From Acidobacteriaceae bacterium (GTDB lineage Bacteria > Acidobacteriota > Terriglobia > Terriglobales > Acidobacteriaceae), in assembly GCA_003132405.1 (NCBI GenBank), contig PKXQ01000079.1, positions 1 to 64,000 of the forward strand: a DNA stretch of 64,000 nucleotides, given 5' to 3'. Of the stretch, positions 41,622-46,216 are shown piece by piece (positions within the stretch are counted from its first letter, which is position 1; each line of letters opens with the position of its first letter). The notes under the pieces were generated by a model. That model did no database searches. It had not been told where the DNA came from and saw nothing but the letters and a program-made list of their open reading frames with translations. The position numbers and the translations under genes are program-made.

Positions 41622-42986
<1,365 letters not shown>

Positions 42987-43259
42987 CTTGTCCAACACCG
43001 CGAACCACACTTATAACTTCACTTATAGCCTTCGTACGCCTGCCACCTTATATATGTGCGCTAGCGTTCAGAGGCTTGGCCGGAAGCCCACCAGTCGTCG
43101 GTCTGGCTGCATCGACTGCTCACATCCCCTGACAGTTCATGCACTTCCGCATCCGTAAATTTCTGTAAATCTCATTTTGCACCGGCATCGCCACTCTCGC
43201 GCCCTGCATCCAACGTGTTAAATTTGAACTCAAAATCACTATTGTCTAGGAGGTTTCGA

Positions 43260-43874
43260 TTGAAACGGATATCGCGTATTGCCGTCCTCATGACCTTTGC
43301 CTGTGCCGCGCTGGCGTCGTTTTCGAATTTCGCCCAAGCGCAGAAAATCGACCTGGGGTTCGGGGTTAGCGGATTAGTCGCGCCCTCCGCCGATTCGGCG
43401 AGCGGCGGTCACGCCCCGGCGTCACTCAGCGGGGGCACCTATCCCGGCTTTAGCGGCGATGTGCTTTTCTGGCACAACGTCGGTATCGGAGGCGAAGTCT
43501 TCTGGCGAGCTACTCAGGCCGACAATTACGGAGATCTAAATGAAGGTCTGAATTTTCGCCCCGTATTCTTCGACTTCGACGCCGTCTATTCGCCCAAGCT
43601 TGCCACCCACACCTATCTTGACCTCGATGGCGGCGTCGGCGCGATCAGCAACCGCTTCTACTGCGACGGCTGCGGCAACGGCTACAACACCAATTACACC
43701 AGCGACAAACATTTTATGGTCGACTTTGGCGGCGGCATAAAATTCTATGTGAAGGGCGGCTTTTTTGTTCGCCCTGAAGCGCGCCTCTATTATGCCACCA
43801 ACAATAACCTCTTCAGCTCTGGCCGCTTCGCGCGCGCCGGCGCAACCATCGGCTACTCCTTTGGCAACAAGTAG
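43260..43874 (+). CDS. Outer-membrane beta-barrel protein, copy 1
   Basis: This 204-aa protein has a signal peptide (TTG-initiated; cleavage near AQA/QKID). Alternating beta strands follow with aromatic residues at the ends (LGFGVSGLVAP, VGIGGEVFWRATQAD, NFRPVFFDFDAVYSPKL, THTYLDLDGGVGAISNRF, FMVDFGGGIKFYVKGGFFVRPEARLYYATN and ATIGYSFGNK). It ends in an aromatic-rich strand, as barrels do. It is an eight-strand-type OmpA-like barrel; function is unknown. AGGAGG lies six bases before the TTG at 43260, which fixes the start. A paralogue is fused to a TatA-like segment 160 bp downstream. Confidence 0.82.
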   Translation: MKRISRIAVLMTFACAALASFSNFAQAQKIDLGFGVSGLVAPSADSASGGHAPASLSGGTYPGFSGDVLFWHNVGIGGEVFWRATQADNYGDLNEGLNFRPVFFDFDAVYSPKLATHTYLDLDGGVGAISNRFYCDGCGNGYNTNYTSDKHFMVDFGGGIKFYVKGGFFVRPEARLYYATNNNLFSSGRFARAGATIGYSFGNK

Positions 43875-43916
43875 ATTCCGATGTAATTTGTCATGACCCT
43901 GAGCAAGGCCGACAGG

Positions 43917-43955
43917 AAGGACCTACCGCATCCCGGCGGGTCCTTTTAATTTTTC
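43917..43955 (+). terminator. Terminator after barrel copy 1
   Basis: AAGGACC...CCG pairs with CGG...GGTCCTT, followed by TTTTAATTTTT. The upper stem lies in GACCTACCGCATCCCGG. The 5' half belongs to the GTCATCCTGAGC-type repeat, so the repeat provides the terminator. Confidence 0.7.
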
Positions 43956-44022
43956 GCTGGCTATGTTGTTGGTAATCGAATGAGCAGCGCGTGCCCCGTC
44001 TTCACCGTTCCACATTATGCAT

Positions 44023-44028
44023 TATGAT
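44023..44028 (+). promoter_or_regulatory. -10 box of a possibly leaderless promoter (fusion gene)
   Basis: TATGAT ends six bases before the ATG at 44035. TTCACC at 44001-44006, with 16 bases between, is a possible -35 box. Transcription would begin at or near the start codon. The same TATGAT-N6-ATG layout precedes the intact tat gene. Confidence 0.5.
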
Positions 44029-44034
44029 AGCTGC

Positions 44035-44787
44035 ATGAATTTCGGCGTCTCTGGCGAGACGGTTCTTCTCTCTTTTCTGCTGATCCTTTTGGGTTCCAAT
44101 AAATTACCCGAGATCGGCCAACATGTCGCAGGACTCGTTCGCGAATCCCGGCGCGCCTCCCCAAGTTTCCGTTCCGCCCCTAGCCGCCTCCTGCTCCTGG
44201 CGTTCGCCTTCGTCGCTCTCGGCGCGACCTCAACCTTGGCGCACGCTCAAAGAATTGACGCCGCTGTCGGCGTCAGCGCGATCTTAGCCCCCGGAGCCAG
44301 TTCCGCGAGCAGCTCGGAGTACCCTGTATCGCTTAGCGGTGGCCTCTATCCCGGTCTAAGCGGCGATCTGATCTTCTGGCGCAATCTAGGCATCGGAGCC
44401 GAGCTCTACTGGCGCGCCTCCCAGGGCGTCAATTACGGCGGCAGCGTCGGCGTCAATTTCCGCCCGTTCTTTTACGACTTCAACGCCGTGTACTCGCCCA
44501 AACTCGCCAATCATACGTACCTCGAACTCGTCGGTGGCCTGGGCGGCCTCGATACTCGCTTTTACGAGTGCCCCGACTACGACTGCAATCTAGGCTACAG
44601 CCAGGGCGTCAATAGCTTCGCTCACTTCGATGTGGACTTCGGTGGCGGCGTCAAGTTTTACGCCAAGCGAGGCATCTTCATTCGTCCCGAAGCGCGCTAC
44701 TACTTCATCCTGAACGACACCAACTTCAGCTCCAACCACGCCGCCCGAGTCGGCATTTCAATCGGATACACCTTTGGAGCGCACTAG
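44035..44787 (+). CDS. Chimera of TatA/B N-terminus and outer-membrane beta-barrel
   Basis: The first 48 residues (MNFGVSGETVLLSFLLILLG then NKLPEIGQHVAGLVRESRRAS) copy the N-terminus of the TatA/B gene 0.95 kb downstream, including the membrane helix and hinge. After about residue 50 the frame runs without break into a second signal-peptide-like stretch (RLLLLAFAFVALGATSTLAHAQ) and then a beta-barrel that is paralogous to copy 1 (LSGGLYPGLSGDLIFWRNLG, NFRPFFYDFNAVYSPKLANHTYLELVGG). No ribosome site precedes the barrel part alone. The conserved FG of the Tat hinge reads LG. The likely origin is a tandem duplication with junctions inside tat and inside the barrel gene. The native product may be cleaved at AHA/QRI. 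Confidence 0.8.
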   Translation: MNFGVSGETVLLSFLLILLGSNKLPEIGQHVAGLVRESRRASPSFRSAPSRLLLLAFAFVALGATSTLAHAQRIDAAVGVSAILAPGASSASSSEYPVSLSGGLYPGLSGDLIFWRNLGIGAELYWRASQGVNYGGSVGVNFRPFFYDFNAVYSPKLANHTYLELVGGLGGLDTRFYECPDYDCNLGYSQGVNSFAHFDVDFGGGVKFYAKRGIFIRPEARYYFILNDTNFSSNHAARVGISIGYTFGAH

Positions 44788-44805
44788 CCCTCAATCTGAA
44801 TTTGT

Positions 44806-44866
44806 CATCAATTTAAATTTGTCATCCTGACCCTGAGCTCCGTCGAAGGGGAAGGACCTGCTGTTA
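44806..44866. repeat. GTCATCCTGACCCTGAGC...GAAGGACC repeat
   Basis: TTTGTCATCCTGACCCTGAG is followed by GAAGGGGAAGGACCTGC. A shorter variant is at 43889-43925 after copy 1 of the barrel gene, in keeping with duplication of the barrel and its flank. Confidence 0.6.
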
Positions 44867-44964
44867 GCGACCGCGAAAATATAACTGCCGTCGGCTTTGC
44901 TCCCGCCTTGTAACGCATTTGTCGTTTCTCGCGTGGCGAGTGGCCCATTCCCCCCGTCCCGCAT

Positions 44965-44970
44965 TATGAT
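44965..44970 (+). promoter_or_regulatory. -10 box of a possibly leaderless promoter (tatA/B)
   Basis: GCATTATGATAGGACC precedes ATG at 44977. TATGAT lies six bases upstream of the start, and AGGA is too close to work as a ribosome site, so a leaderless transcript is likely. The motif is shared with the duplicated 5' end at 44023. Confidence 0.5.
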
Positions 44971-44976
44971 AGGACC

Positions 44977-45405
44977 ATGAATTTCGGCGTCTCCGGCGAG
45001 ATGATCTTTCTGTTTCTTCTGGTGCTGATTCTTTTCGGCCCCAAGAAGATGCCCGAGATCGGACGCCAGGTCGCGCGCCTGCTCAACGAGTTCCGCCGCG
45101 CCTCCAACGAATTCCGTTCGCAGATTGAGTCCGAGGTCAATTCGCTCGACTCCAGCAGTGGTCGCGGAAGCTATGGCAGCTCTCGCCCCCAGATCATGCC
45201 GTCTTTGCAGGCTCCGCTAGGATCGCTGGCGAATCGCATCTTTAATCCTCCATCGCCTGAAAAGTTGCAGGCTGTCGAAGAGGCTGCCGCCGAAGACGCT
45301 GCCGTCAAGGCCGCTGCCGCTGAATCGGTCGCCCGCAACGCCGCCACCGAAGCCGCATCAGCTCCCGAGCCCTCCGCGGCTGCGAAAGTGGCGCCCGATG
45401 CCTGA
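44977..45405 (+). CDS. Sec-independent translocase subunit TatA/TatB
   Basis: This 142-aa protein has the standard TatA/B build. A short periplasmic start and one membrane helix (GEMIFLFLLVLILFG) lead to the conserved hinge FGPKKMPEIG, an amphipathic helix (RQVARLLNEFRRASNEFRSQIESEV) and a disordered Ala/Pro/Glu-rich tail. The long amphipathic helix and Glu-rich pattern lean toward TatB, but TatA of acidobacteria looks similar. It overlaps tatC by eight bases, so both are made together. Its 5' end is duplicated in the fusion gene upstream. Confidence 0.88.
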   Translation: MNFGVSGEMIFLFLLVLILFGPKKMPEIGRQVARLLNEFRRASNEFRSQIESEVNSLDSSSGRGSYGSSRPQIMPSLQAPLGSLANRIFNPPSPEKLQAVEEAAAEDAAVKAAAAESVARNAATEAASAPEPSAAAKVAPDA

Positions 45406-46216
45406 ATCGGCCATTTCCCCCCTAAACAATTCCGCCATCGACAAGAATAACGACGCGGAGCAAATGCCCTCCATGGGCTTCCTCGATCATCTCGAGGAAC
45501 TGCGCAAGCGCATCGTCTATTCCGTCATCGCCATCGCCGTCGGCTTCTTCGCCTGCTGGGGATACGCCGGCCGTATCTACGGAATCATGCAGCGCCCCAT
45601 CATGGACGCGCTCGCGCGCAACGGCCTGTCGGCCAAGCTCGTCTACGTCAATCCCACCGAGCCATTCAATCTCTATTTAAAAGTCGGAATGATGGCGGGC
45701 TTATTCGTCGCCTCGCCCTTCGTGCTCTACCAGCTCTGGTGCTTCATCTCGCCTGGCCTCTATCGCAACGAAAAGCGCTACGTGTTTCCCTTCATGCTCT
45801 CGACCATCGCTCTCTTTCTAGCCGGTGGATACTTCGGCTACAAAGTCGTTCTCCCGCAGGCGCTGGTCTTCCTCATCGGCTACGGCAAAGACTTTCAGCC
45901 GATGATCACGCTGACCGAATATAGCTCCCTATTTCTGACGCTGATCGTCGGCATGGGAATCATCTTTGAAATGCCGATCCTGGTATTTTTTCTCGCGCTC
46001 ATGGGCATCGTCAGCGCCGGATGGATGTGGCACAACATCCGCTATTCCATCCTGGGCATCTTCGTGGTCGCCGCCATAGTCTCGCCCACGCCCGATATTC
46101 TGAATATGTGTATCTTCGCTGCGCCCATGGTGGGTTTATATATGCTAAGCACCGGTATCGCCTACATCGTTCATCCCACGCAGCGCCAGAAGCGCGCGGA
46201 CAAGAAAAAGTCTTAA
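45398..46216 (+). CDS. tatC: Sec-independent protein translocase TatC
   Basis: This 272-aa protein has six membrane helices and the TatC signature MGFLDHLEELRKRIVYSVIAIAVGF. Its conserved Glu and first-loop residues bind the twin-arginine signal. PTEPFNLYLKVGMMAGLFVASPFVLYQLWCFISPGLYRNEKR, GYFGYKVVLPQALVFLI, and FEMPILVFFLALMGIVSAGWMW follow in the usual order. The overlap with tatA/B implies coupled translation. A Tat substrate, the multicopper oxidase at 47313, lies 1.1 kb downstream on the same strand. Confidence 0.95.
   Translation: MPESAISPLNNSAIDKNNDAEQMPSMGFLDHLEELRKRIVYSVIAIAVGFFACWGYAGRIYGIMQRPIMDALARNGLSAKLVYVNPTEPFNLYLKVGMMAGLFVASPFVLYQLWCFISPGLYRNEKRYVFPFMLSTIALFLAGGYFGYKVVLPQALVFLIGYGKDFQPMITLTEYSSLFLTLIVGMGIIFEMPILVFFLALMGIVSAGWMWHNIRYSILGIFVVAAIVSPTPDILNMCIFAAPMVGLYMLSTGIAYIVHPTQRQKRADKKKS

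Follow-up and report, generated by a model that had tools for sequence, protein, structure and literature searches.

The window, by which we mean the whole 64,000-nucleotide stretch of DNA analysed here, comes from a draft genome (5.72 Mb, 158 contigs, 88.84% complete) and carries a MOFRL gene, a barrel gene (barrel 1, B1), a second barrel (barrel 2, B2) fused to the 5' end of a tat gene, an intact tat gene, tatC and an M28 peptidase gene, in that order. The features that concern us are the following.

41622..42986, + strand: MOFRL/DUF4147 gene of the glycerate-kinase type on the left flank (Pfam DUF4147 and MOFRL, both over cut-off).
43248..43253, + strand: AGGAGG, the Shine-Dalgarno motif of barrel 1 in the sequence; the fused copy has no such motif.
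43260..43874, + strand: barrel 1, with a TTG start, a signal peptide ending in AQA/Q and an OMP_b-brl barrel (Pfam PF13505).
43875..44034, + strand: spacer 1, homologous to spacer 2 by alignment score against shuffles.
44013..44026, + strand: CATTATG, doubled before the fusion; it is single before tat, both in the window and in relatives.
44023..44028, + strand: TATGAT, putative -10 box of the fusion, 12 nt before its ATG.
44035..44175, + strand: Tat-like leader of the fusion, codons 1-47, recognised by identity to the genome's own tat.
44176..44247, + strand: signal peptide of the fused barrel, with a predicted cut at AHA/Q after residue 71, from alignment to relatives.
44248..44787, + strand: mature fused barrel (B2), from an 8-stranded barrel model, Foldseek and invariant columns.
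44788..44976, + strand: spacer 2, aligned with spacer 1.
44965..44970, + strand: TATGAT, putative -10 box of the intact tat, from the sequence and comparison with relatives.
44977..45405, + strand: intact TatA/B-family gene (tat), Pfam TatA_B_E 40.9 bits against a cut-off of 21.
45398..46216, + strand: tatC, overlapping tat by 8 nt, Pfam TatC E 5.5e-70.

B1 scores 29.0 bits against PF13505 (gathering score 28.7), and its start is TTG 43260 with AGGAGG upstream, which corrects an earlier reading; TTG is also the usual barrel start in relatives. Two more short TatA-like genes lie elsewhere in the genome (L001 and L002, on contigs 137 and 148 of G000). Since L001 passes the TIGR01411 cut-off, the window's tat may, judged by its position, perhaps be tatB.

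The fused gene is a single open frame (window 44035-44787, 250 aa) in which 47 Tat-like residues are joined in frame to a signal peptide and an 8-stranded barrel. Its best start is ATG 44035, with a second in-frame ATG at 44017, and it runs unbroken to the stop at 44787, so that the complete chimera reported in the sequence-only reading, a Tat-like helix ahead of a signal peptide, is confirmed. Homology to tat spans fusion codons 1-47 and tat codons 1-48, one codon being deleted in the fusion, and ends at FRS; the barrel signal peptide starts at about codon 50, and from about residue 50 onwards the fusion matches the barrel signal peptide and barrel over their full length. The Tat part is 58-63% identical to its own tat in protein over residues 1-48 (E 7e-8), and in DNA 81% identical across a 64-nt stretch and 70% across 97 nt, while the fused barrel shares 56-57% of its amino acids with B1. 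Judged from amino-acid identities of 56-63%, the duplicated copies are old, so that this is no recent duplication.

For the two spacers upstream of the tat starts the alignment score is 94.5, compared with a mean of 33.4 (sd 6.9, highest 52.5) for 500 single-base shuffles; with the promoter block removed the score is 58.7 (shuffles mean 22.4, sd 6.6, highest 44.2). This match is owed in part to a repeat-like stretch common to both. A repeat, TGTCAT(CC)TGACCCTGAGC...GGAAGGACCT, lies at 43889-43904 in spacer 1 and 44820-44838 in spacer 2, the pattern having just these two matches within the window. By the spacer alignment and the E value of the Tat part, the proposed order of barrel, tat 5' end plus barrel, and tat is present beyond chance. 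The junctions, too, fall at tat codon 48 and in the barrel signal region, as had been suggested, and a strict in-situ tandem duplication is favoured although unproven; the longest word common to tat 45090-45150 and B1 43255-43315 is today 7 bases, the copies being too diverged for the original ends to be read.

The fold of the fused barrel is predicted to be 8-stranded and OmpA/OmpX-like. An AlphaFold2 model, built on an alignment (A2) of 23 own barrel sequences, has helices at 7-20, 24-39 and 48-65 and strands within 73-248, with a mean pLDDT of 72.1, a pTM of 0.62 and low confidence for residues 1-50; another alignment (A1), to which Tat pieces had been added, placed these pieces in wrong columns and was not used. 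Foldseek with this model retrieved OmpA (E 1.7e-8, TMt 0.70) and also Ail, NspA and OmpX, and the fusion scores 20.4 bits against PF13505, under the gathering score of 28.7. It resembles the OmpA/OmpX-type 8-stranded barrels (PF13505; PDB 9fzc, 1bxw, 1qj9) in predicted fold and size but is 14-16% identical to these three structures. The signal peptide of the fused barrel is hydrophobic from 51 to 69, and A69, A71 and Q72 are invariant in the 23-row alignment, which predicts that it is cleavable. Hydrophobic stretches cover residues 1-28 and 47-71 of the fusion; in residues 21-51 two E face a basic set of K, five R and H, and residues 1-8 carry just an E, a charge pattern that fits an N-out, loop-in, signal-out topology.

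The fusion was sought in sister species, as the sequence-only reading had advised. A barrel match was present in 22 of 23 same-genus genomes (G019, without one, was dropped), and all 22 loci have the order barrel-tat-tatC, 20 of them with a single barrel before tat and 20 with the MOFRL gene before the barrel (it was not seen in G008 and is off the contig in G021). The 23 barrel N-termini from these loci are ordinary signal peptides, none of them Tat-like. A match covering both Tat part and barrel occurs in the window's genome only, that is in 1 of 24 genomes of the genus, 1 of 41 when the set of relatives is taken and 1 of 200 sampled from the class, where at E<=1e-6 a strongly diverged Tat part could escape. 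In eight more distant loci tblastn gave barrels and no tat at E<=0.01. Related genomes that carry only barrel and tat had been paired, in the original suggestion, with stop codons in the copy; no fusion was seen in the relatives, but the fused copy is open.

Several candidate fusions were discarded. In G152 and G204, long open frames precede barrels, but no Tat part was found in them; a G006 match over query 1-82 was its tat gene followed by tatC; and the barrel of locus L042, which came from the genome contig scan with a match from query residue 18, begins with an ordinary signal peptide and lacks a Tat part. Two barrels precede tat in G002 and G021, with no fusion seen: the second barrel of G002 and the G021 barrel adjoining tat have their own N-termini, and the start of the other G021 barrel is off the contig. 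These second barrels adjoining tat (L009 and L027) are strongly diverged and form their own clade (99/98). Their presence suggests that this spot gains barrels more than once. In the draft genome G014 two different MOFRL-barrel loci (L006, L037) stand on different contigs, L037 being truncated where its contig ends; either the bin is mixed or the second locus is real.

The two halves of the fusion come from genes that start differently. The 18 relatives' barrels that were scored together (of 23) all begin with TTG, and 17 have a Shine-Dalgarno-like motif; of the other five, read separately, four have GGAGG before TTG or GTG, and the second barrel of G002 has no clear one. None of 21 tat starts in relatives has a Shine-Dalgarno motif (that of G021, with its start masked, was dropped), and all 21 have TATSAT exactly 12 nt before the ATG, as TATGAT in 19 and TATCAT in two. 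By sequence, both window copies and all 21 relatives have TANNNT about 12 nt before the start and no Shine-Dalgarno motif. Passages of PMC3160421 give TANNNT about 12 nt before the start as the leaderless signature, with such genes averaging 13.3% in Acidobacteria. The tat start of the genus hence looks leaderless, and the neighbouring barrel is Shine-Dalgarno-led and mostly TTG-initiated. The TATGAT-N6-ATG block pointed out earlier does stand upstream of fusion and tat alike, but it is not special to those copies, being the conserved tat start of the genus.

At the new joint, the Shine-Dalgarno motif, the TTG start and the first codons of B2 have been removed, and the tat promoter, the ATG and 47 codons have been placed before its signal peptide. 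The fused barrel has consequently lost the barrel-type start and has a tat-type one; from codon 1 to the signal peptide there is just one further ATG, GTG or TTG, the TTG at codon 19, which has no Shine-Dalgarno motif. We propose that the decaying Tat domain is kept as a leader since no good start codon exists outside it. The fused copy most likely survived by capturing the on-switch and start codon of tat, and not by a new export role. Counting against this reading, the 7-base repeat before the fusion alters the promoter spacing and shifts any -35 element, and a promoter scan found one site (44001-44028) where shuffles give 0.9.

Selection appears to have treated the two halves differently. 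Of the 34 columns without any variation in 21 other barrels (a count that also leaves out the G002 second barrel and the G021 barrel), B2 retains all 34 and B1 retains 32. Mean pN to relatives is 0.301 for B2, 0.271 for B1 and 0.257 for other pairs, with barrel pS at about 0.6-0.65; silent sites are near saturation, so we claim no ratio for the barrels. For tat, codon counts used 16 of 21 rows, the shorter G001, G011, G013, G015 and G023 being left out. At the 30 Tat positions invariant in these 16 relatives, the intact tat retains 30 and the fusion 20; the losses include F20L, P22S and F39S, so that neither F20, the FGP motif nor F39 is present, while the polar position 8 (E8) is kept, as are G21, K24, P26 and E27. 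Polarised with the majority of the 16 relatives as outgroup, the fusion's Tat part has taken 33 substitutions since the reconstructed duplication point and the intact tat 8, with nonsynonymous/synonymous counts of 21.3/11.7 and 2/6. Pairwise dN/dS is 0.38 between fusion and tat, 0.23-0.52 between fusion and relatives where defined (15 of 16), and 0.045-0.183 between tat and the 16 relatives. A simple neutral simulation expects 20.8 amino-acid changes in the Tat part, compared with 16 found (2.3% tail), a weak sign of residual constraint, as expected if the helix and charge pattern still matter; the frame stays open in 49% of the neutral simulations, so the open Tat segment is by itself weak evidence. 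The barrel is therefore conserved and the Tat domain is decaying into a leader, as shown by the columns retained (34 of 34 as against 20 of 30) and by the substitutions (33 as against 8).

The leader descends from the TatA/TatB/TatE family (PF02416) and keeps E8 and LPEIG, but it has lost F20, P22, F39 and others and misses the Pfam cut-off. Its 48-aa piece scores 13.6 bits against PF02416 (gathering score 21), compared with 41.1 for the own tat piece, and the full fusion protein had no match to the Pfam Tat family at E<=10. Against NCBIfam Tat models the piece reaches at best 26.1 bits of 62 and the full fusion 21.6 of 62 (E 1.1e-4); the intact tat is also under all cut-offs (best 54.2 of 77), so these cut-offs cannot separate leader from tat. 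For Tat function, position 8, which is kept, would be needed, and probably also F20 and F39, which are lost. Passages of PMC5201420 describe E. coli TatB binding TatC through E8, and cite older reports of an active E8A variant; in passages of PMC10092561, E. coli TatA F39A traps assembled TatA, with CueO export scored negative in those strains. We do not class the fusion as a Tat component. The new export route once envisaged for it finds no support, since the barrel keeps a normal signal peptide with AHA/Q, and competition for TatC, though E8 is kept, appears unlikely from the loss of 10 of the 30 invariant residues (including F20 and F39) and the score under the Pfam Tat cut-off.

We can present a proposal for the origin and working of this gene, which as a whole we consider reasonably probable: duplication or unequal exchange, capture of the tat start, retention of the barrel and decay of the Tat leader. 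In this lineage, a segment reaching from the barrel signal region into the downstream tat as far as codon 48 would have been duplicated, or added by unequal exchange with a near relative, giving barrel 1 - tat'/'barrel 2 - tat - tatC. Transcription from the TATGAT box would start at or next to ATG 44035 (leaderless). The Tat-derived helix would enter the inner membrane N-out/C-in, leaving the arginine-rich linker in the cytoplasm, and the normal signal-peptide helix would take the barrel into the Sec route, where signal peptidase I would cut at AHA/Q. The OmpA/OmpX-size barrel would then reach the outer membrane, and a 71-residue two-helix remnant would stay behind. The gain would be expression from a new switch and a second, diverged barrel.

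The main rival concerns origin only, and the argument about function is independent of it. The extra barrel 1 and tat 5' end may have come in from a different species within the genus and become linked to the resident barrel through a recombination that was unequal and in part illegitimate, with no in-situ duplication and a protein that works as in our preferred reading; we regard this as possible but rather unlikely. In the best trees (partial barrels of G014 and G021 left out) the two barrels do not come out as sisters: B2 groups with G005, G007, G009, G014 and G017 (97/97 protein, 98/87 DNA), four of which also belong to the set in the tree of TatC, the right flank (97/96), while B1 falls elsewhere, unplaced; the MOFRL tree of the left flank leans to G018 (88/62), and the Tat part has three rare states in common with G018, of which one is found in G012 as well. 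At synonymous sites the Tat part is no closer to its own tat (dS 0.66) than to four relatives (0.50-0.56). Since the barrel and TatC trees also conflict at other points, barrels may pass from one species to another. Against import, G13 (V5) and C103 (codon 35) are common only to the fusion and its own tat among the 16 relatives compared, which suggests an event after the split from the sampled species; forcing fusion and tat as sisters raises the likelihood by 3.0 (p-AU 0.627); and sisterhood of B1 and B2 is not rejected (p-AU 0.277 protein, 0.092 DNA). The joint is of the downstream'-'upstream type that results from tandem duplication, it lies between intact copies, and the spacers are homologous. 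A single clade of B2 and the G002 second barrel was rejected (p-AU 0.0026).

That the fusion is unexpressed and decaying seems improbable to us: the Tat part evolves fast, the promoter spacing has changed and the mean pN of B2 slightly exceeds that of B1 and other pairs, but the barrel part is free of stops and retains every one of its invariant columns at a pS of about 0.6-0.65. Very improbable is a Tat part that still functions as a Tat-like helix, with either the whole protein or its cut stub binding TatC or TatA and altering Tat export. The retained E8, G21, K24, P26 and E27, the weak NCBIfam match of the full fusion and the sign of residual constraint would favour such a role; the loss of ten invariant residues (F20, P22 and F39 included), the F39A behaviour of E. 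coli TatA (PMC10092561) and the missing Pfam match weigh against it. An assembly chimera of two strains or species, conceivable in so fragmented and incomplete a draft, would be a highly improbable source of these sequences, since the copies differ by about 40% in protein. They are too different for a collapsed repeat, the frame is kept, tat, B1 and fusion have around the joint no common exact word longer than 9 bases today, and best identities to sampled species are alike on both sides (left 84% near full length, to 88% in pieces, and 85%; right 89%). A two-species chimera was also judged from the neighbour genes, where no clear left/right contrast emerged. We give least credence to a further prediction, that the two-helix leader left over after signal-peptidase cutting (a degenerate TatB-like helix with E8, and the signal helix) remains in the inner membrane and exerts an effect at TatC. 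If true, making the barrel would tune Tat export, and a signal peptide would have turned into a regulator of a second export system.

Under the duplication and start-capture reading, a Shine-Dalgarno-led TTG has given way at this locus to an ATG that is probably leaderless. Because 22 sister species have the unfused state, one can compare which half is conserved (the barrel) and which decays (Tat), and an outer-membrane protein signal peptide that has gained an upstream membrane helix poses a testable question of Sec/SPI processing. No natural Tat-barrel fusion was found among the titles and abstract beginnings of the open-licence PMC papers listed.

The nearest published case that we found, by an analogy of nearly equal geometry, is that of the nusG'-'sigH and rplK'-'sigH chimeras of Staphylococcus aureus, described in passages of PMC3486894 as short-junction tandem duplications in selected clones, with revertants found; in one, codon 50 of the downstream nusG is in frame with codon 7 of the upstream gene. 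There, as here, the 5' end of the downstream gene is joined in frame to the upstream gene with both intact copies retained, and the chimera relies on the promoter and start that the downstream gene supplies (in sigH, the ribosome site too). Spontaneous duplication also activates a gene in PMC11111574, where tandem duplications activate transferred genes, 'promoter capture' is named and a technique is built on the effect; those, however, are transferred genes in recipient strains. Whereas the promoter- and start-capturing chimeras of PMC3486894 are, in those passages, selected laboratory clones and revertible, the one presented here is natural, diverged and retained, its leader is a membrane helix and its start looks leaderless.
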